Positions 7,516 to 64,000 are shown, counted from the stretch's first letter. The stretch: DNA of 64,000 nucleotides from Deltaproteobacteria bacterium (GCA_012517315.1 JAAYVE010000046.1:1-64000), one strand, 5' to 3'. A program made the numbers and translations. Notes: generated by a model not told the origin, from the letters alone.

Positions 7516-9249
7516 ATGGCTCGGAAACGCTTTGTTGCTCTTTTTATCGGACTGTTCATCACCCTGGGCTTTCTTTCCGCCTCCGCCTCCGTTCCCCAGG
7601 ATAAGGCCGGGCCTTCCGACGTGCTCGTCATTGCGGGGACGGTCACCAACGCCCAGGGGAAGGCCATCAAAGAGGCGGAGATCGCCGTCTTTGTGGACGG
7701 CCGGGAAATCCACATGGAAGAAGAGGTGACCACGTCCAAGGCGGGCCGCTACGAGGCGGAACTGAAGCTCCCCCTCTCCACCCTGCCTCGAGGGAAGGTG
7801 GAGATCGAGGCGAAGAAGCCTTCCTACCAATCATCCAGGCGCATCGCCCTGGAGAACGTGGTGCGGGAAAAGGAAGACCCGGAGGGGAGCGTCTACTATC
7901 TCGCCCACCACAGTTTTGTCATGAAGCGGGCCATCACCCCCGCCTTCTGGATCGCCGCGCTGGTTTTGGTCCTCGTCTACGCCCTCATCGCCTTCGAGTG
8001 GATGCACCGGACCCTGGCGGCCCTCCTTGGGGCCGCCGTCCTCATGACCGTGAGCTACACGGCGGGGACGTTCGACAAGGACTACATGATCCTCTCCTTT
8101 GAGGACGCCATGCACGCCATGGACATGAATGTCATCTTCCTTCTCATGGCCATGATGATCATCGTAGGAGTCCTGAAGAAGACAGGGGTTTTCCAGTGGC
8201 TGGCCTACAAGTCCTACCAGTTGGCCCGGGGAAACGTGTTCGCCCTCGCATCCATCCTCATGGTGGTGACGGCCGTCACTTCCGCCTTTCTCGACAACGT
8301 GACCACGATGCTTCTCATCATTCCCGTGACCATTGAGATCGCCCTCACCCTCAAGATCAGCCCGGTCACGCTCCTTCTCCCTGAGGCTTTCGCCTCCAAT
8401 GTCGGGGGCACGGCCACCCTCATCGGCGACCCCCCCAACATCATGATCGGGTCCTACGCCAAGCTGAGTTTCGTGGACTTCGTGCAGAACCTCACGGTCA
8501 TCTGCGCCATTTGCCTTGCGGTGACAGTGGTGTACTTCGTCTTCTGGTACAAAAAGGGGTACATGAAGGCCCAGGTGGGCGACGTGCAGAAGATGATCAA
8601 GCGCCTGAGGGAGGAGTACCGGATCACCGACAGGGGCCTCCTTGTCAAGGGAGGGATCATCCTGGGGATCACCATTTTTCTTTTCATCATACACGGGGCC
8701 CTGCACATGGAGCCGAGCATCGCGGCCCTCATCGGTGCGGCGGTCTTGCTCGTGATAAGCAAAGTGGACCTTGTGGAGATGCTGGAGCACGAGATCGAGT
8801 GGCCCACCCTCATCTTTTTTATGATGCTCTTCATCGTGGTGGCGGGGGCGGAGGAGACGGGCCTCATCCAGATGATCGCCGACTGGGTGAACGACCTTTC
8901 CAAAGGGTCCCTCGTGACGGCCATTCTCATGATCCTCTGGGTGTCCGCCCTCGCTTCGGCCATCATCGACAACATCCCCTTCACGGCCACCATGCTTCCC
9001 ATCGTGGGCTACCTCACCACGGCCATTCCAGGGGCCGAGAGCGGCGTTCTCTGGTGGGCCCTCGCCCTCGGGGCGTGCCTGGGCGGCAACGGAACAATGA
9101 TCGGGGCGAGCGCCAACGTGGTCACGGTGGGGATGGCGGAGCGGGCCGGCCATCCCATTTCTTTCATGGAATATTTGAGAGTGGCCTTCATCCCGATGAT
9201 CATCACCATCATCCTGTGTTCCTTCTGGCTCCTTTTGGTGGAGATGTAA
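7516..9249 (+). CDS. ArsB/NhaD-superfamily permease with N-terminal exported beta-domain
   Basis: This 577-aa protein begins with a signal peptide (about 1-26). An exported domain of about 100 residues follows, resembling transthyretin/carboxypeptidase-regulatory beta-sandwiches (IAGTVTNAQGKAIKEAEIAV). A permease of about 10-11 membrane segments then carries the ion-transporter superfamily signature ASNVGGTATLIGDPPNIMIG near residue 300. A second DNIP-type motif (IIDNIPFTATMLP) and GGNGTMIGASAN form the matching second repeat. The superfamily moves oxyanions, organic anions or Na+/H+. The extracytoplasmic domain suggests ligand capture or partner docking. The ribosome site is AAAGGA. A frameshifted paralogue lies at 15867-17600. 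Confidence 0.87.
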   Translation: MARKRFVALFIGLFITLGFLSASASVPQDKAGPSDVLVIAGTVTNAQGKAIKEAEIAVFVDGREIHMEEEVTTSKAGRYEAELKLPLSTLPRGKVEIEAKKPSYQSSRRIALENVVREKEDPEGSVYYLAHHSFVMKRAITPAFWIAALVLVLVYALIAFEWMHRTLAALLGAAVLMTVSYTAGTFDKDYMILSFEDAMHAMDMNVIFLLMAMMIIVGVLKKTGVFQWLAYKSYQLARGNVFALASILMVVTAVTSAFLDNVTTMLLIIPVTIEIALTLKISPVTLLLPEAFASNVGGTATLIGDPPNIMIGSYAKLSFVDFVQNLTVICAICLAVTVVYFVFWYKKGYMKAQVGDVQKMIKRLREEYRITDRGLLVKGGIILGITIFLFIIHGALHMEPSIAALIGAAVLLVISKVDLVEMLEHEIEWPTLIFFMMLFIVVAGAEETGLIQMIADWVNDLSKGSLVTAILMILWVSALASAIIDNIPFTATMLPIVGYLTTAIPGAESGVLWWALALGACLGGNGTMIGASANVVTVGMAERAGHPISFMEYLRVAFIPMIITIILCSFWLLLVEM

Positions 9250-15866: not shown

Positions 15867-17600
15867 ATGTTCATGCAACCAATTGTCATTTTTGTCGGCG
15901 GACTGCTCATTTTGCTGAGCTCCTCTGTCGCATACTCATGCACATCCCAGGCTGGGGCGGGGCCTTCCGACGTGCTCGTCATCGCGGGGACGGTCACAAA
16001 CACCCATGGAAAGGCCGTGAAGGAGGTGGAAATCGCCGTTTTCGTGGAGGGCCGGAAAATCCACACTGAGGGGGAAGTGGCCACGTCCAAGGCGGACTGC
16101 TACGAGGCGGAACTGAGGCCCCCCTCTCCACCCTGCCTCGAGGGAAGGTGGAAATCGAGGCGAAGAAGCCTTCCTACCAATCATCTGGGCGCATCGCCCT
16201 GGAGAACGTGGTGCGGGAAAAGCAAGGCCCGGAGGGGGACGTCTACTATCTCGCCCACCACAGTTTTGTCATGAAGCGGGCCATCACCCCCGCCTTCTGG
16301 ATCGCCGCGCTGGTTTTGGTCCTCGTCTACGCCCTCATCGCCTTCGAGTGGATGCACCGAACCCTGGCGGCCCTCCTGGGGGCCGCCTTCTTCATGACCG
16401 TGAGCTACACGGCGGGGACGTTCGACAAGGACTACATGATCCTCTCCTTTGAGGACGCCATGCACGCCATGGACATGAACGTCATTTTCCTGGTCATGAC
16501 CATGATGATCATCGTGCGGGTTTTGAAGAAGACGGGGGTCTTCCAGTGGATGGCCTACAAGTCCTACCAGTTGGCCCGGGGAAACGTGTTCGCCCTCGCA
16601 TCCATCCTCATGGTAATGACGGCCGTCTCCTCTGCCTTTCTCGACAACGTCACCACCATGCTCCTCATCATTCCCGTGACCATCGAGATCGCCCTCACTT
16701 TCAAGATCAACCCCGTGACGCTGCTCATGCCCGAGGTCTTTGCATCCAATGTGGGAGGCACGGCGACCCTCATCGGCCACCCCCCCAAAATCATGATCGG
16801 CTCTTACGCCAAGCTGAGCTTTCTCGACTTCGTGCAGAACCTCACGGTCATCTGCGCCATTTGCCTTGCGGTGACGGTGGTCTACTTTCTCTACTGGTAC
16901 AAGAAGGGGTACATGAAGGCGGAGGCGGGAGACGTGCAGAAGATGATCGCCTACCTGAGGGATGAGTACCGCATCACGGACGGGGTCCTCCTCATGAAGG
17001 GAGGGGTCATCCTGGGGACCACCATCTTTCTTTTCATCATACACGGGGCGCTCCACATGGAACCCAGCATCGCGGCCCTCATCGGTGCGGCGGTCCTGTT
17101 GGTTCTGAGCAGGGTGGACATCGTGGAGATGCTGGAGCACGAGATCGAGTGGTCCACCCTCGTCTTTTTCATGATGCTTTTCATCGTGGTGGCGGGGGCG
17201 GAAGAGACGGGGCTCATCCAAATGATCGCTGGCTGGGTGAACGACCTTTCCAGGGGATCGCTCGTGACGGCCATACTCATGATTCTCTGGGTGTCCGCCA
17301 TCGCCTCGGCCATCATCGACAACATCCCCTTCACGGCCACCATGCTTCCCATCGTGGCCCACCTCACCACGGCCATTCCCGGGGCCCAGGGGGGGATTCT
17401 CTGGTGGGCCCTGGCCCCTAGGGGCGTGTCTGGGGGGCAACGGAGCCATGATCGGGGCGAGCGCCAACGTGGTGACGGTGGGCATGGCGGAGCGGGCGGG
17501 CCACCACATCCCGTTCATGGCTTACGTGAAGGTGGCCGCCGTTCCCACGGCCATCACCATGATTCTTTCATCCCTCTGGCTTTTGCTGGTGGAGCTGTAA
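15867..17600 (+). pseudogene. Frameshifted paralogue of the beta-domain/ArsB-type permease
   Basis: This is a close copy of the gene at 7516-9249 with the same order: signal peptide, exported beta-domain, permease. Relative to that gene it has a 1-base deletion near 16110-16120 and a 1-base insertion near 17410-17430, so no single frame encodes the protein. The permease signature has also drifted (LIGHPPKIM against LIGDPPNIM). Substitution at such conserved positions argues for real decay and not only sequencing error. The original start is ATG 15867 and the original stop TAA 17598-17600. Confidence 0.85.
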
Positions 17601-17643
17601 CGCGGTGAACGGGAGGATGGGGACCGAACGGTTCTGTCCCGTA

Positions 17644-57527: not shown

Positions 57528-58090
57528 CCCCTGTGTGCATTTTCTGTCCGCGTTCGCGTCTGCGCCTCGCCGGGTCCCGCTGAGCGCATTCAGGCCCTGT
57601 GGACGAAAAGGCGGCTGTCGGGCGATCTCGTCGCTGTGCCCCCTTTCATGGGCAGGGTTTCTCAGGTTTTGGACAGCTGCACCAGGTTGTGCCTCCTCGA
57701 GCCCGATCCGCATCGGCTGCCGGACCTGAGGGTTGTGCCCGTCGCCGGCAGCTCCGCAGCCGAGCCCGCCAACGCGATCAAACAGCTGTGCGTCGCCCAC
57801 ATCCTCTGCGCGCCACTGAGCGATGCCTTCCATACCCGCCTGCGTGCAGCCGGCATCGGGCTCTCCTGCGTCGTCAGCGGCAACGTTCAGTAAGTGATGG
57901 AGGCCTGGCGGAACGAGACGCTGAAGCATGCCCGGGGCAGAACAGACCGGGTCCGCGCCTTACACCCCTGTAGCGGCCCGCAACCGCCGTTCGGCGCGCA
58001 AAGGAAACCAATTGCACCTTATCCGGCGGAGGGAAAGGTGCGTTTTGTTTCCTCACCGGCGCCGCGCGAAAACAGCCCCCGCCTCTACAT
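57528..58090 (+). pseudogene. NifX/NifB-type protein pseudogene
   Basis: The frame reads LVAVPPFMGRVSQVLDSCTRL (family pattern AVP..GRVSPVFD) and then LCVAHILCAPLSDAFHTRLRAAGI (pattern ADVLICGGIS). It continues SGNVQ-stop-VMEAWRNETL, where the family reads G.V.EVL.A in the same frame. The TAA at 57891-57893 therefore interrupts a recognisable domain, and no good start codon with ribosome site is present (GTG 57636 is the only candidate). This is a decayed third NifX-like gene in the window; the 3' limit is approximate. Confidence 0.55.
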
Positions 58091-58221: not shown

Positions 58222-58578
58222 ATGTTTTCGCGCAGAGAATTCCTCAGGGAATTGGTCGGCCGGGGGTTCTCCGCCGTACGCGAGGTCCACGGCACGGACC
58301 AAGGGGCCCGCTTCGACGCGGCGCCGGAGTGGGCGTCCATCCTCCCGGCGACCGAGCTCAGCCCTGCGCTGCTCGCCCTGTAGGCCGAGTGCCGCGGGGT
58401 GGATCTGCAGGACGGAGGCCCAGAGCGCTGGTGGCGCCTCTTCTACGCCGAGCTCTCCCGGAGGGGACTGGGGGGAGGCACAGGGGAGCCCGCAGAGGAC
58501 CCACCGGACGCCGAAGCCGTTGGCGGCGCTGCGTTCCGCAGTCCGCGATCCGATGGAACCGAGTCCCATTGGAAATGA
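58222..58578 (+). pseudogene. Unknown gene interrupted by an amber codon
   Basis: ATG 58222 follows AAGGGGGG and begins MFSRREFLRELVGRGFSAV, which resembles a twin-arginine motif without a clear hydrophobic stretch after it. The frame meets TAG at 58381-58383, then continues openly (AECRGVDLQDGGPERWWRLFY) to a stop at about 58578. The coding character on both sides suggests one gene broken by a nonsense mutation. A short 53-aa product is the alternative. Confidence 0.45.
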
Positions 58579-58591
58579 AAGGAGGTCTGGG

Positions 58592-60004
58592 ATGGAGCGT
58601 TACGGTACGGGTTATCTGGAGGAGCGCAAGCTGGTCAAGCGCTGGCCGCAGCCGATACCGGCCGTCGTGGCGTTAGTGCTGACACTCGCCGTGTTTTACG
58701 CCACGTGGTGGATCTTTCAAGATCCGCGCGGCTGGATGCGGATGTACACGCCGTATGTCGGCTACATGTACACCCGCTGGTGGCTGATCATGCTGATCTG
58801 GATGGTTTACATCTTCAACTACTGGCCCTTCAAGCGCAAGTGGCTGGAAAACACCCACCCGCTTATCAAGGGAGCAATCCTGACGGCAATCTCGGTCGCG
58901 ATCTTGTGGGTGCTGATCAAGGGCTTTTTCGAATCTCTTCTCGGCAACTACGGCATCGCCTACTTCAATCCCGAAAACCTGATGAAGCTGCCGCGGATGA
59001 CCGAGTTCTTCGCTCTCGAATACGCGGCGCTGGCCTGCCTGATGTTTGCGGCCATCGCCTCCTGGCTCAGCCCGGCCTGGGTGGTGGCCTGCGAGGAGGT
59101 GCCCTGGCAGAACATGAGCCAGCCCGGCAAGGGCATCAGCATTCTGGTGGCAACCTTTTTTCTGAGCACCCTGATCTATTTCATGACCATGCACTCCCAC
59201 ATGGGCATCCTGTACTATCCCTGGCAGTACTTCACGGCCATCGCCCCGCCTTATTGGGAGAAGTTCGCCAACACCGTCTCGGGCAATTTCCACGTGGCCT
59301 GGATCATGTGCTGTACGGTCACGGTCTGGATTGTGGAGACGATCTGGGAGCGCTTCCCGTTCAAGCTGATCAGGACGAACTGGCTGCGCCGTGTGGTGGC
59401 CTTTTTCGGGATCATCGCGATCGCTTGGGCCATGCACCTCTTCCTTTATTTCGCGCAGGAGCTGACCTGGGGCCCGGCCATCCGCGGCACGCGCCTCATC
59501 AACGCGCCCGACTGGCGCTGGCTGCACGTGGGCGAAATGGCGGTCTTCTTCCTGGTGCCGGCGCTTTTCCTGACCTTCTACTGCGGCAACTGGCCCAAGC
59601 GTTTCAGCCTGCCGGTCAATGTGCTGATCCGAACGGCGATCACGATCGCCGCGGCGATCCTGCTCTATATCTTCTACTACAAGACCTCCCATGACTACCT
59701 GGGGACCCAAAAGGGCTTCATGCACGAGCAGCAATTTCCCATGATCCCGACCATCTGGCTGATCAATATCTGGCTGGTCCACCACTGGTTCATGGACAAC
59801 TGGCCGGCCTGGAAGATGGTGCCCAAGACCGCCGAGGAGATTGCCGCTGACCATGCCGCGGAAAAGGCTCAGATCGCCGATCTCAAATGGAACCCGGCGC
59901 TGGGCTGGGGCTTGGTGGCCGGAGCCGTATGCGGGGTGGCGATCTATTTCATCACCCTGAGCGTGTTGCCCTGGGCCTACCAGAACATCACCGTGATCAA
60001 GTAG
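58592..60004 (+). CDS. Polytopic membrane protein, unknown family
   Basis: A 470-aa protein with about 11-12 membrane helices and many aromatic residues (Trp, Tyr, Phe). His and Trp residues cluster within helices (MTMHSHMGILYYPW; WLVHHWFMDNWPAW), which could be metal- or substrate-binding. I do not recognise the family. ATG 58592 has AAGGAGG. It is the first gene of a four-gene operon (gaps of 18, 63 and 54 bases) with a Tat-exported metallo-hydrolase and two exported proteins, and may be the transporter or membrane anchor of that system. Confidence 0.85.
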   Translation: MERYGTGYLEERKLVKRWPQPIPAVVALVLTLAVFYATWWIFQDPRGWMRMYTPYVGYMYTRWWLIMLIWMVYIFNYWPFKRKWLENTHPLIKGAILTAISVAILWVLIKGFFESLLGNYGIAYFNPENLMKLPRMTEFFALEYAALACLMFAAIASWLSPAWVVACEEVPWQNMSQPGKGISILVATFFLSTLIYFMTMHSHMGILYYPWQYFTAIAPPYWEKFANTVSGNFHVAWIMCCTVTVWIVETIWERFPFKLIRTNWLRRVVAFFGIIAIAWAMHLFLYFAQELTWGPAIRGTRLINAPDWRWLHVGEMAVFFLVPALFLTFYCGNWPKRFSLPVNVLIRTAITIAAAILLYIFYYKTSHDYLGTQKGFMHEQQFPMIPTIWLINIWLVHHWFMDNWPAWKMVPKTAEEIAADHAAEKAQIADLKWNPALGWGLVAGAVCGVAIYFITLSVLPWAYQNITVIK

Positions 60005-60022
60005 ATCTGACAAGGAGGAACC

Positions 60023-61198
60023 ATGTCCGAAGATAAAATCAACGTCAGCCGCCGGGACTTTTTCAAAGGGGCGGCCATGGGGGTTTTGGGGGGCACGGCG
60101 CTGGGGATGGGCCTGTTCTCTTATTCCCCCTGGCGCAAGTCCTACTTCCCTGAAGTCAAGCGCAAGCTCGCCGACATCGGCGCCTGCAAGTCGCTCATGG
60201 TGACGAACATCTCGGAGACGAGCTGGTTCGAGAACGCCGTCCTCATGGGCGACATCAAGGGTGCCGGGGGTTTGCTCGTCAACCAGTACAGCTACAACTG
60301 GCCGCCCTTCGGCGATGGGACGGGCCTCGGCAAGGGCAGCTACGAGAAGGGCATCGCCAAGATAAAGCACCTCCTTCCGAACAACTTGGAGGAGGCCTGG
60401 GCGGTGACCGAAAAGCTCTCGGTCAACCCGCAGAATGCTGGCGGTTTCGCCGCCCTGGTCGAGATCGAGGAAATGAACGGCCGCAAGCGCAAATTCCTGC
60501 TCGACAGCGGCTGGTCCTACAAGTGGATGGACGAGTGCTTCAAGCGCGAAGGCATCGACCAGATGCTGAAAAACAAGGAGATCGAGGCCTTGTTCATCTC
60601 GCACGAGCACTTCGACCACTTCTGGGGCATCCCGGTCACCTACAAATACGATCCCACCATTACGACCTACATCCCGGAGGGCTTTTACCCGGAGGGGCTG
60701 CAGTACATCAAGGATTCCGGCCACCAAGGCAAGGTGATCACGGTCAAGCCCGGCCTCAACCCGGTGATCCCCGGGCTGGCCTCGTTCGTCTTTGCGGTCC
60801 CGATCATTTGTCGTGTCTACGGAGAACAGGCCTTGTATGTCAACGTCAAGGACCACGGTCTGACCTGCATCACCGGCTGCTGCCACTTCGGCATCATCCA
60901 GTTCTCCGAGACCGCCTTCCGGGAGATCAAGTACGAGAAGGATCAGCTCTATGGGATTTACGGGGGGCTTCACATCTCGCCCTTCGAGGACTGGGACCCC
61001 AAGTACGACGACCTCGTGCTCTCGCTCGGAAAGTACGGTTTCAAAAAGATCGGCTGCAACCACTGCACCGGGATCCTATGCGCCAAAAAGTTCATCGAGC
61101 GGGGGTATCCGGTCCAGAAAGGCACGGCTCGGCACCGGTCGCAGGACCCGGCCTATCTCGGTAACGGGGACAAGATCGGCTACGGGATTGAAATTTAG
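60023..61198 (+). CDS. Tat-exported metallo-beta-lactamase-fold protein
   Basis: A 391-aa protein. A twin-arginine signal (VSRRDFFKGAAMGVLGG) directs folded export. The metal site motifs are SHEHFDH (about 193-199, the HxHxDH motif), GCCHFG (about 284-289) and NHCTG (about 346-350). These resemble the DHPPP-synthase-like (MJ0301-type) branch of the superfamily, where GCSHPG and HCTG are typical. It should bind one or two metal ions outside the cytoplasm or be anchored in the membrane; the substrate is unknown. The ribosome site is AAGGAGG. Confidence 0.88.
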   Translation: MSEDKINVSRRDFFKGAAMGVLGGTALGMGLFSYSPWRKSYFPEVKRKLADIGACKSLMVTNISETSWFENAVLMGDIKGAGGLLVNQYSYNWPPFGDGTGLGKGSYEKGIAKIKHLLPNNLEEAWAVTEKLSVNPQNAGGFAALVEIEEMNGRKRKFLLDSGWSYKWMDECFKREGIDQMLKNKEIEALFISHEHFDHFWGIPVTYKYDPTITTYIPEGFYPEGLQYIKDSGHQGKVITVKPGLNPVIPGLASFVFAVPIICRVYGEQALYVNVKDHGLTCITGCCHFGIIQFSETAFREIKYEKDQLYGIYGGLHISPFEDWDPKYDDLVLSLGKYGFKKIGCNHCTGILCAKKFIERGYPVQKGTARHRSQDPAYLGNGDKIGYGIEI

Positions 61199-61261
61199 CC
61201 CGGCCGCCGAGCGGCGGGAGGCCACCGGCTTCCAGCCGCTTCATGCTCCGAGGAGGACGAC

Positions 61262-61657
61262 ATGCAGAAAAGCCCCGCAGGACTTTGGAAATACCTTGCG
61301 CTGATGCTTTTGCTGGCAGGCACGGTCGGCTTTTTTGGACCGAAGCTTATTCCGGAAATGGAGGAGGTTATCGACAATTTCACCGACCGGGCCAAGCGCG
61401 AGGCGCTCCTCCAGAAATACGGGGAGCCGGGGGTGGTGCCTCAAGAGTTGGCCCTTTGCGACATGACCAAACCCGTGGTGTCCAAAACGGAAGAAAAGGA
61501 CGGCATCACCTATTACACTATGGAGTCGCGGGTCGAAAAGTGCGAGCACTCCGAGGCGGCCGTCGGCACGATCCGGATTTTCGTCATGGGCTGGAAAGGC
61601 GGGAAGATCGTGAAATTCGTCTGGGGTGGACCCAAGGGAGGCAAGGTGGAATACTGA
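61262..61657 (+). CDS. Exported single-domain protein (unknown repeat domain)
   Basis: A 131-aa protein with an N-terminal membrane/signal segment (about 10-26) and one domain. That domain aligns with both repeats of the next protein: LIPEMEEVID, then LLQKYGEPGVVPQELALCDMTKPVVSKTEEKDG, YYTMES, and a closing GGKIVKFVWGGPK. It lacks the Cys of the YC(D/E)P motif (YGEP here). No known family is recognised. It lies in the operon with the metallo-hydrolase. Confidence 0.78.
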   Translation: MQKSPAGLWKYLALMLLLAGTVGFFGPKLIPEMEEVIDNFTDRAKREALLQKYGEPGVVPQELALCDMTKPVVSKTEEKDGITYYTMESRVEKCEHSEAAVGTIRIFVMGWKGGKIVKFVWGGPKGGKVEY

Positions 61658-61711
61658 AGACGCCCATTGCTGGACTGCTGTCGGGTCTTGTACGTGGAAA
61701 GGGGGGACAGG

Positions 61712-62401
61712 ATGAAAAAGGTGGTCTGGGGCATTGCGGCCGTTTTCTTGCTGGCGGGGATGGCGTGGGCCGATTCGAGGCCCGGAATTATTCCGCAAAT
61801 GCAGGAATGCATGCAATCCCACGGTTCGCCGGCGCAGTACACCGCGGTTCTGCAGAAGTACTGCGATCCGGGCATCATGCGCCAAGCCATGGGGCTGCTG
61901 GTCATCAAGAAGCCTTATGTAATCAAAACCGAGCAGAATGGTGCGGCGGTGTGCTACACCGTGGAAGGCACCACGGAGGAGACTTCAAGGGAGATTCCGG
62001 CCGACAGCTTGCAGACCTACAACGTGTGCTGGGAGAACGGGAGGGTCGTCTCGCTGGAGTTCTACGGCGCCAAGCCGCGCGTGCACCAGGAGATCATCCC
62101 CGAGATGCGAGAATGCATGCGAGCCCACGGGTCGCCGGCCGAATATGAGGCCGTCCTGAAGAAGTATTGCGATCCAGACATTATCCGCCAGGCCATGGGG
62201 CTCTTGGTGGTTAAAGAGCCCTATGTCGTCAAGACCGAGCGGAAAGGGCCGCTGACCATCTACACGGTCGAGGGACGGACCGTCGGCACATCCAGTGAAA
62301 TTCCGAGCGATGTGGTTCAGCGTTACCGCGTGAGTTGGCGCAACGCTAAAGTCGTTTCTTTGGAGTTCTTGGGGCCGAAGACAGCCGCGGGCAAGCCTTG
62401 A
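61712..62401 (+). CDS. Exported protein with two copies of the same unknown domain
   Basis: A 229-aa protein with a signal peptide (about 1-20, ending AWA-D) and two repeats of about 95 residues. Repeat 1 starts IIPQMQECMQSHGSPAQY and repeat 2 IIPEMRECMRAHGSPAEY. Both contain KYCDP, RQAMGLLV, KPYV or EPYV followed by IKTE/VKTE, YTVEG and VVSLEF. The Cys residues ECM and YCDP are conserved between repeats and could bind metal or form a disulfide. ATG 61712 has GGGGGG upstream. It is the last gene of the operon. Confidence 0.8.
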   Translation: MKKVVWGIAAVFLLAGMAWADSRPGIIPQMQECMQSHGSPAQYTAVLQKYCDPGIMRQAMGLLVIKKPYVIKTEQNGAAVCYTVEGTTEETSREIPADSLQTYNVCWENGRVVSLEFYGAKPRVHQEIIPEMRECMRAHGSPAEYEAVLKKYCDPDIIRQAMGLLVVKEPYVVKTERKGPLTIYTVEGRTVGTSSEIPSDVVQRYRVSWRNAKVVSLEFLGPKTAAGKP

Positions 62402-62674: not shown

Positions 62675-62697
62675 CCTTGGTAAATTTCAAACCAAGG
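62675..62697. repeat. Hairpin before the ISAs1 remnant
   Basis: CCTTGGT (62675-62681) and ACCAAGG (62691-62697) form a perfect 7-base stem with a 9-base loop. It lies just before the transposase pseudogene and could be part of the element or a terminator of the upstream operon. Confidence 0.35.
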
Positions 62698-62700
62698 AGG

Positions 62701-63613
62701 ATGGCAGAGGGAAGAAGTTATTGCCATTTCAGTCAAGGACCACTTCGGTCAACTCGGCGACCCGCGGATCTCGCGCAAGACACATCACAAACTGGTCGAT
62801 ATCATCGTCATCACGCTGTGCGCGGTGACAGCGGGCGCAGACGATTGGGTTGAAATTGCTGCCTTCGGCAAAGAAAGAGAGCACTGGTTCAAGACCTTCC
62901 TGGAGTTGCCGGGGGGGATCCCCTCTCACGATACTTTTGGCCGAGTGTTCTCGCGGATCAATCCGGAGGAATTTGGCATGTGCTTTGTCAGTTGGATTCG
63001 TAGCGCTTTTCCCGTTGGGGAGTCCGACAGTGATCCTGGGACAGGTGAAGACCGACGACAAATCCAATGAAATCACCGTAATCCCTGAACTGCTCAAGAC
63101 TCTCCACATCAAGGGATGCGTTGTGACCACTGACGCCCTGGGGTGCCAAAAGGAGATCGTCAGGCAGATAGTCGATCAAGGCGCCGACTACGTTCTTTCC
63201 CTCAAGGGCAATCAAGGCAGTCTCCATAAAGAGGTGGAACTGTTCTTTCAAGATGCCCAAAAAGAGGGCTACAGAGATGTGGTCCGAGAGACCCACACCA
63301 CCGTGGATGTTGGGCATGGGCGGGTTGAGACCCGCACCTATCGAGTCTGCCCTGTGACGCCAAGCGGTTTGCAGAGGCGGCACGGGACCACTGGGGTGTA
63401 GAGAAGAGTCTGCACTGGTGTCTCAACATCTCCTTTGGTGAGGACGACAGCAGGGTTCGCAGTGGACATGCCCCTGCGAATCTAGCCATCATGGGACGCT
63501 TTGCCCTTAGCCTCATCAAGCAAGATCCACAGAGGAAGATCGGCGTCAAGGCCAGCCGAAAGCGAGCCGGTTGGGGCAACCACTACCTTCTGCACCTGCT
63601 GAGACTGGCCTAA
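62701..63613 (+). pseudogene. ISAs1-family transposase pseudogene
   Basis: Three pieces of an ISAs1 (H-repeat type) transposase are visible in different frames. The N-terminus reads DHFGQLGDPRISRKTHHKL and ALCAV-type TLCAVTAGADDW. The middle reads ILGQVKTDDKSNEIT, VVTTDALGCQKEI and DQGADYVLSLKGNQG. The C-terminus reads RDHWGVEKSLHWCLNI, SRVRSGHAPANLAIMG and KRAGWGNHYLLHLL. Frameshifts separate them. A deletion between about 63000 and 63030 removed the part holding the first catalytic Asp, so it is inactive. Confidence 0.85.
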
Positions 63614-63618
63614 ATTTC

Positions 63619-64000
63619 ATGCAATTGCCCCGGCTGGATGGGGACGGGTTCCTGCTGAATCCCAAGAAATGTGAGCGGGACCTGGCCAAAGGCCTGGCCA
63701 AGGAGCTCAGGATGCAAGGCGTGCTAACGCGGGAGCACTACGGTCTCATCCATCATTACATCAGGCACCAGCTCGAAAAGACCGGAAAATGTCCCAACAT
63801 CATCGAAACCTTCCGAGCGAACAACCTATGCCGCGCCGAACTGAAGCGGCTGTTCCCCACAGGCTACATGCGGGGCGCCTGCAAGCTGGCCGAGATGAGC
63901 TGCAAGGGGGTCTACCTCGGCGCGGACTACATGGAGCACAGCGCCAAGGACCTGAACGCCGTTGTCCAGCGGCAGGAATACCGGCTCGACGTACGGGGCT
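63619..64000 (+). CDS. DsrC/TusE-family sulfur-relay protein, partial at window end
   Basis: An open frame from ATG 63619 to the window edge reads LDGDGFLLNPKKCERDLAKGLA, then LTREHYGLIHHYIRHQLEKTG and LFPTGYMRGACKLAEMSCKG. These match the DsrC pattern (DEDGFL, LT.EHW.vI.F.R, LFP.GP..QACK.AG). DsrC carries sulfur between siroheme sulfite reductase and membrane partners. The C-terminal Cys arm is unusual: the second Cys is 7 residues after the first, not about 10, and at least 30 more residues follow. It begins 5 bases after the IS pseudogene stop with no room for a ribosome site, so the native N-terminus may have been removed. Confidence 0.75.
   Translation, partial: MQLPRLDGDGFLLNPKKCERDLAKGLAKELRMQGVLTREHYGLIHHYIRHQLEKTGKCPNIIETFRANNLCRAELKRLFPTGYMRGACKLAEMSCKGVYLGADYMEHSAKDLNAVVQRQEYRLDVRG

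Follow-up and report, generated by a model that had tools for sequence, protein, structure and literature searches.

A deltaproteobacterial operon that begins near the end of a 64,000-nucleotide stretch of DNA (the whole stretch analysed, hereafter the window) has, as judged by comparing the sequences of related loci, a conserved core of three genes: gene A, encoding a polytopic membrane protein; gene B, encoding a Tat-exported protein of the metallo-beta-lactamase (MBL) fold; and a gene for a domain called X here, usually fused to a COG0523/CobW GTPase. Two further genes, C and D, encode small proteins with a shared repeat domain and are optional add-ons. The gene set is strongly conserved and apparently undescribed, and no paper linking these parts was found in the open-access literature. 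We propose, tentatively and at somewhat less than even confidence, that the module encodes an undescribed envelope enzyme complex, in which a membrane barrel of one chain and pseudo-five-fold build works with an MBL-fold enzyme that a GTPase metallates and Tat exports, joined in one lineage by a subunit with the repeat domain, known from nowhere else, and that the barrel is the first member of a new superfamily of membrane proteins.

Gene content of the locus and its relatives

Genes A, B, C and D are open reading frames on the + strand (58592-62401), separated by 18, 63 and 54 bases as originally predicted, with a purine-rich Shine-Dalgarno-like stretch upstream of every start. The operon extends past the window edge at 64,000, first with a DsrC-like gene and then with the X-GTPase gene, which was located because relatives carry a GTPase gene at the same locus. 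The four genes as the unit, as the original prediction took them, are not supported: C and D are optional members, and the core has its third gene beyond the edge of the window.

Table 1 Features of the locus. Positions are those of the window unless the contig is named.
Feature	Position	Strand	Remarks
Decayed Nitro_FeMo-Co/NifX-like accessory gene	57564-57941	+	In-frame TAA at 57891-57893
Decayed small accessory gene	58222-58506	+	In-frame TAG at 58381-58383; the relatives' copies, about 100 aa long, lie immediately before gene A
Gene A, polytopic membrane protein of 470 aa, core component	58592-60004	+	Five TM hairpins plus C-terminal helix (predicted); no Pfam or NCBIfam match
Gene B, Tat-exported metallo-beta-lactamase-fold protein, Tflp/COG1237-like, core component	60023-61198	+	HxHxDH, GCCH, GGLH and NHCTG motifs
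Gene C, small protein, membrane-anchored or exported, one repeat-domain copy	61262-61657	+	Domain at 61346-61642
Gene D, small exported protein, two repeat-domain copies	61712-62401	+	Domains at 61787-62080 and 62093-62386
Broken transposase remnant splitting the operon	62690-63611	+	DDE_Tnp_1-associated and DDE_Tnp_1 pieces in different frames
Tandem DsrC-domain gene	Start about 63571-63619, end at contig 64260	+	PF04358; crosses the window edge at 64000
X-GTPase gene	Contig 64290-66209	+	Just outside the window, 29 bases after the DsrC gene; PF02492, E 1e-40
P0005-like protein gene, 431 aa	Contig 73649-74944 (L062:17650-18945)	-	Beside a CoA-transferase A/B pair

Co-occurrence was analysed in 55 loci obtained by one scan of one-genome-per-species contigs, in which gene A was 60-94% identical and the peptide patterns were taken from A, so that close relatives were favoured. 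The loci come from Desulfobacterota, Alphaproteobacteria (Pseudovibrio, Rhodospira and others), SAR324 and Chloroflexota; many are metagenome bins and some taxon labels may be wrong. The expectation that all four genes travel together held for A and B, which adjoin in 55 of the 55 loci (in L041, B is cut by the contig end), and failed for the repeat domain of C and D, present in only 21 (20 times between B and the GTPase gene, once after the GTPase gene). Domain X was found in 52, in most cases as a fusion with the GTPase (in L015, L019 and L054 only part of the gene is seen); it is missing from L012 and L041 at a contig end, and from L049 within the fetched stretch. To offset the bias towards close relatives, 297 genomes of the phylum were searched with a profile of A, which recovered close orthologues, a group diverged to 27% identity and, more distantly, a P0005-like subfamily. 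A (about 27%) still adjoins a B homologue (34-37% where measured) and an X without GTPase in six divergent loci (L090-L094, L127). B-like proteins without A or X nearby occur in many genomes, so that the family of B is wider than the module.

The IS remnants that had been placed on both sides of the operon, and read as a sign of acquisition, were found on the right only, where a transposase remnant (PF13808, E 9e-35; PF01609, E 6e-9) lies between gene D and the DsrC gene. The left flank holds two accessory genes in decay that are part of this locus in relatives: these have, upstream, one NifX-like gene and one of about 100 aa, and both copies in the window are interrupted by stops. In tblastn searches with the relatives' genes, the NifX-like remnant aligned to intact copies across its stop at 26-43% identity (E down to 2e-27), and the small accessory remnant across its own at 34-41% (E down to 9e-12); the PF02579 match of the NifX-like gene was weak, in one relative, and just under the curated cut-off. 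Since the left flank holds genes of the locus itself and the tree of gene A places the window copy among Desulfobacterales relatives (nearest L004, 94%), acquisition as deduced from IS elements is not supported, and recent acquisition of the window copy is not supported by this tree. In the tree, a clade with support unites six alphaproteobacterial sequences next to Geopsychrobacteraceae, which suggests transfer into some Alphaproteobacteria. No plasmid copy of the module was found, and PADLOC gave no anti-phage defence match for A, B, C, D or the X-GTPase. Elsewhere in the window lie two closely similar permease-like genes (7516-9249 and 16148-17608), the second of which seems, from the ORF list, N-terminally shortened and frameshifted near its C-terminus.

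The gene that crosses the window edge encodes a DsrC-family protein (PF04358, E 4.5e-28, two stretches), with the GACK cysteine retained in the first domain and GAVK in the second. A DsrC gene also precedes the GTPase gene in the relatives L004 and L058, which makes it part of the locus within this lineage; L004 has two copies, one on each side of the GTPase gene. It is absent from all other fetched loci, including those of Pseudovibrio and Malonomonas.

The membrane protein A and the exported protein B

Gene A had no significant Pfam, NCBIfam or PDB sequence match, and by sequence could be assigned to no known membrane transporter or enzyme family. C and D also gave no significant Pfam or NCBIfam match, and the profiles of A and of the repeat domain found nothing in the PDB, as anticipated for the non-hydrolase parts. 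The final model of A, built from a superfamily-wide alignment (pLDDT 84.8, pTM 0.87), replaced an earlier AlphaFold model based on close relatives only (pLDDT 67, no usable fold match), and has ten helices arranged as five hairpins plus a C-terminal helix. The even-numbered helices, second in each hairpin, are much more conserved than the odd-numbered ones (mean entropy 0.38 versus 0.86, p 1e-8), and this is true of every hairpin; A is predicted to be barrel-like, a single chain of five hairpins with a conserved inner ring. The best structural comparison was the designed single-chain barrel 8qkd, with five inner helices like the model (VIA Z 8.5, rmsd 6.7, 238 residues aligned), and because a Z of 8.5 between helical proteins may reflect just a common arrangement (VIA tool note), the barrel remains a prediction; unlike 8qkd, A is natural and membrane-bound, and the two have no sequence in common. 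No natural fold relative was found by Foldseek below E 0.001, and VIA re-aligned Foldseek's own candidates only. The three top Foldseek hits, non-significant, were ActC subunits of alternative complex III (E 0.02-0.1, TM-scores 0.16-0.18). Hairpin-profile comparison for five internal repeats was suggestive for r1-r5, r4-r5 and r1-r4 only (best r1-r5, probability 87%).

The WP-type motif loops of A (four of five read [WF]P, the fifth VPW) are probably cytoplasmic because they are positively charged, and by this topology the conserved HxH (201, 203) and H367/H378 regions would face the periplasm, the side to which B is exported. Invariant in close relatives are H201, H203, H234, H312, H367, H378 and E315; in the wider A-type set (n=12), H203 and H312 are kept in all sequences and H201 in 11. 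The P0005-like protein of the source contig belongs to the same superfamily (BLASTP E 4e-11) and has no Pfam or NCBIfam name. Its subfamily differs from gene A in having no MBL or X partner and in the loss of H201 and H203 (H312 is kept), and its relatives adjoin thiolase, acyl-CoA dehydrogenase, CoA-transferase and acyl-CoA ligase-like genes.

Gene B, described originally as a Tat-exported metallo-hydrolase, scored above the PF00753 cut-off, which places it in the MBL fold. The residues invariant across 17 sequences include R10, R11 and F13 of the twin-arginine motif, H194, H196, D198 and H199 (HxHxDH), and C286, H288, H317, H347 and C348; the Tat-signal profiles scored under their curated cut-offs (Pfam TAT_signal 17.4 bits, TIGR01409 15.7 bits). 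Supported from the original interpretation is an envelope system comprising a Tat-exported enzyme, here of the MBL fold, together with a membrane protein and a repeat domain that both lack a family name, their genes occurring together in other genomes as well. The PDB sequence relatives of B are 7dck, 2p4z and 3h3e, with which it shares HxHxDH, GC.H, GG.H and HC(T/S)G, the cysteine motifs GC.H and HC(T/S)G aligning with 2p4z and 7dck; by these motifs B is a member of the Tflp/COG1237-type MBLs, from which it differs by its Tat signal, an N-terminal extension of about 140 residues and its constant pairing with gene A. Tflp (2p4z), which has the MBL fold, is reported to contain iron or Fe-S: two cysteines lie near its di-iron centre, one of them immediately following the histidine of motif 5, and in the reduced state it has an Fe-S centre (PMC7785958). 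B has an invariant cysteine next after H347 and another inside the GCCH motif. Because these Tflp-type cysteines are invariant, B may bind Fe rather than Zn and the label hydrolase is premature: of the original description, the Tat signal stands, and the hydrolase activity is unproven.

Domain X, its GTPase and the repeat proteins

The X-GTPase of the source genome is intact, has a GCVCC motif and falls in the COG0523/CobW family (PF02492, E 1.1e-40; PF07683, CobW_C, E 9e-12), scoring far under the ZigA and CobW equivalog cut-offs. With G3E GTPases such as CobW and ZigA it shares the cobW domain, GCxCC, CobW_C and a locus that also encodes a metalloprotein (PMC2770081), and it differs from them by the additional N-terminal domain X, about 290 residues long and without Pfam match, which exists alone, with no GTPase, in the divergent loci. 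COG0523 proteins are putative metal chaperones, and the main text of the survey describing them makes no mention of lactamases (PMC2770081). Because X remains part of the module in loci that lack the GTPase, and several X proteins standing alone end in Cys/His motifs (e.g. CSCFHDH, CACYKDH), the sequences suggest client binding, and perhaps also metal binding, by X. Downstream of the X-GTPase gene, three related genomes carry genes that by eye look like ExbB/TonB (L106:4747-6295, L107:13165-14806, L108:13480-15103), hinting at a link to outer-membrane uptake, and two genomes encode similar cysteine-rich, iron-sulfur-like proteins downstream of the module (L046:12783-13850, L133:3872-4921).

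The repeat domain, a unit of about 97 residues with invariant M5, Y25, Y57 and W82 (alignment of 31 copies), was correctly predicted to occur once in one small protein and twice in the other: in a search of the whole source genome, gene C matched the two halves of gene D at E 4e-14 and 2e-12. The profile search that had been proposed with the prediction, made from the three window copies, found the domain in relatives (E down to 1e-45). Scanning of the 31 copies gave no significant Pfam match (scattered hits in one or two members) and no PDB match; Uteroglobin, Aegerolysin and SnoaL_2, considered for D and its domain, were rejected because these Pfam hits were sub-threshold and scattered. Beyond the module loci, the domain was found in no other genome of the 297 sampled from the phylum.

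Proposed mechanism and alternatives

We infer from gene content, and give an even chance of being right, an envelope metalloenzyme module in which B receives its metal from the X-GTPase in the cytoplasm, leaves in folded form through Tat and works at the periplasmic face of A. X would recognise apo-B in the cytoplasm, where the COG0523 GTPase would hand over the metal (Zn or Fe); metallated, folded B would then pass through Tat to the periplasm and act at or next to the loops that A exposes there. The barrel of A, with five hairpins and conserved inner helices, could be the path of the substrate or product or perform the reaction's second half. In one lineage, the repeat proteins C and D would be optional periplasmic subunits. 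Tat carries folded proteins, and a Tat-exported metalloenzyme is therefore normally metallated in the cytoplasm, the compartment of the GTPase. MBLs of the Zn type usually do without a chaperone, so that B is a putative client and the client could instead be A. GntR-type regulators lie upstream in many relatives (25 loci, under half; FCD domain in the one scanned), which makes a small organic compound the probable substrate.

The same regulators, together with the acyl-CoA-type genes beside the P0005-like subfamily, would also suit an alternative that we regard as unlikely, in which A is an organic acid transporter, B hydrolyses a precursor in the periplasm and the GTPase supports B only; A has, however, no transporter family or fold match, and the catabolic neighbours of A-type loci are inconsistent. 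Somewhat less credible still is that A itself, with its histidine-rich periplasmic loops and inner ring, is the metalloenzyme, supplied with metal by the X-GTPase, and B a maturation or protective factor. The invariant histidines and E315, those kept in the wider A-type set and the Cys/His tails on X fit this reading, whereas the loss of H201 and H203 in the P0005-like subfamily (with H312 kept) and the absence of a match of A to any membrane metalloenzyme, by PDB sequence or Foldseek, do not. A redox or sulfur-linked system, with B an Fe or Fe-S protein like Tflp that the tandem DsrC protein and A tie to the sulfur or quinone pool, appears improbable: the conserved Tflp-motif cysteines (PMC7785958), the tandem DsrC gene that the window shares with two close relatives, dsrA in the source genome and the ActC hits of A point to it, but those hits have TM-scores of 0.16-0.18 and the other fetched loci have no DsrC gene. 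That unrelated genes came together by chance beside an IS element, as the broken transposase inside the operon might indicate, has practically no likelihood left, being refuted by the constant adjacency of A and B, still paired at 27-36% identity.

This pairing at low identity, together with the 60-94% identity of A across Desulfobacterota, Alphaproteobacteria and Chloroflexota, indicates strong selection on a module in which gene A, domain X and the repeat domain all lack a family name. Gene A is a candidate for a new membrane fold, and the module makes it possible to ask directly whether Tat substrates receive their metal from COG0523 GTPases ahead of export.
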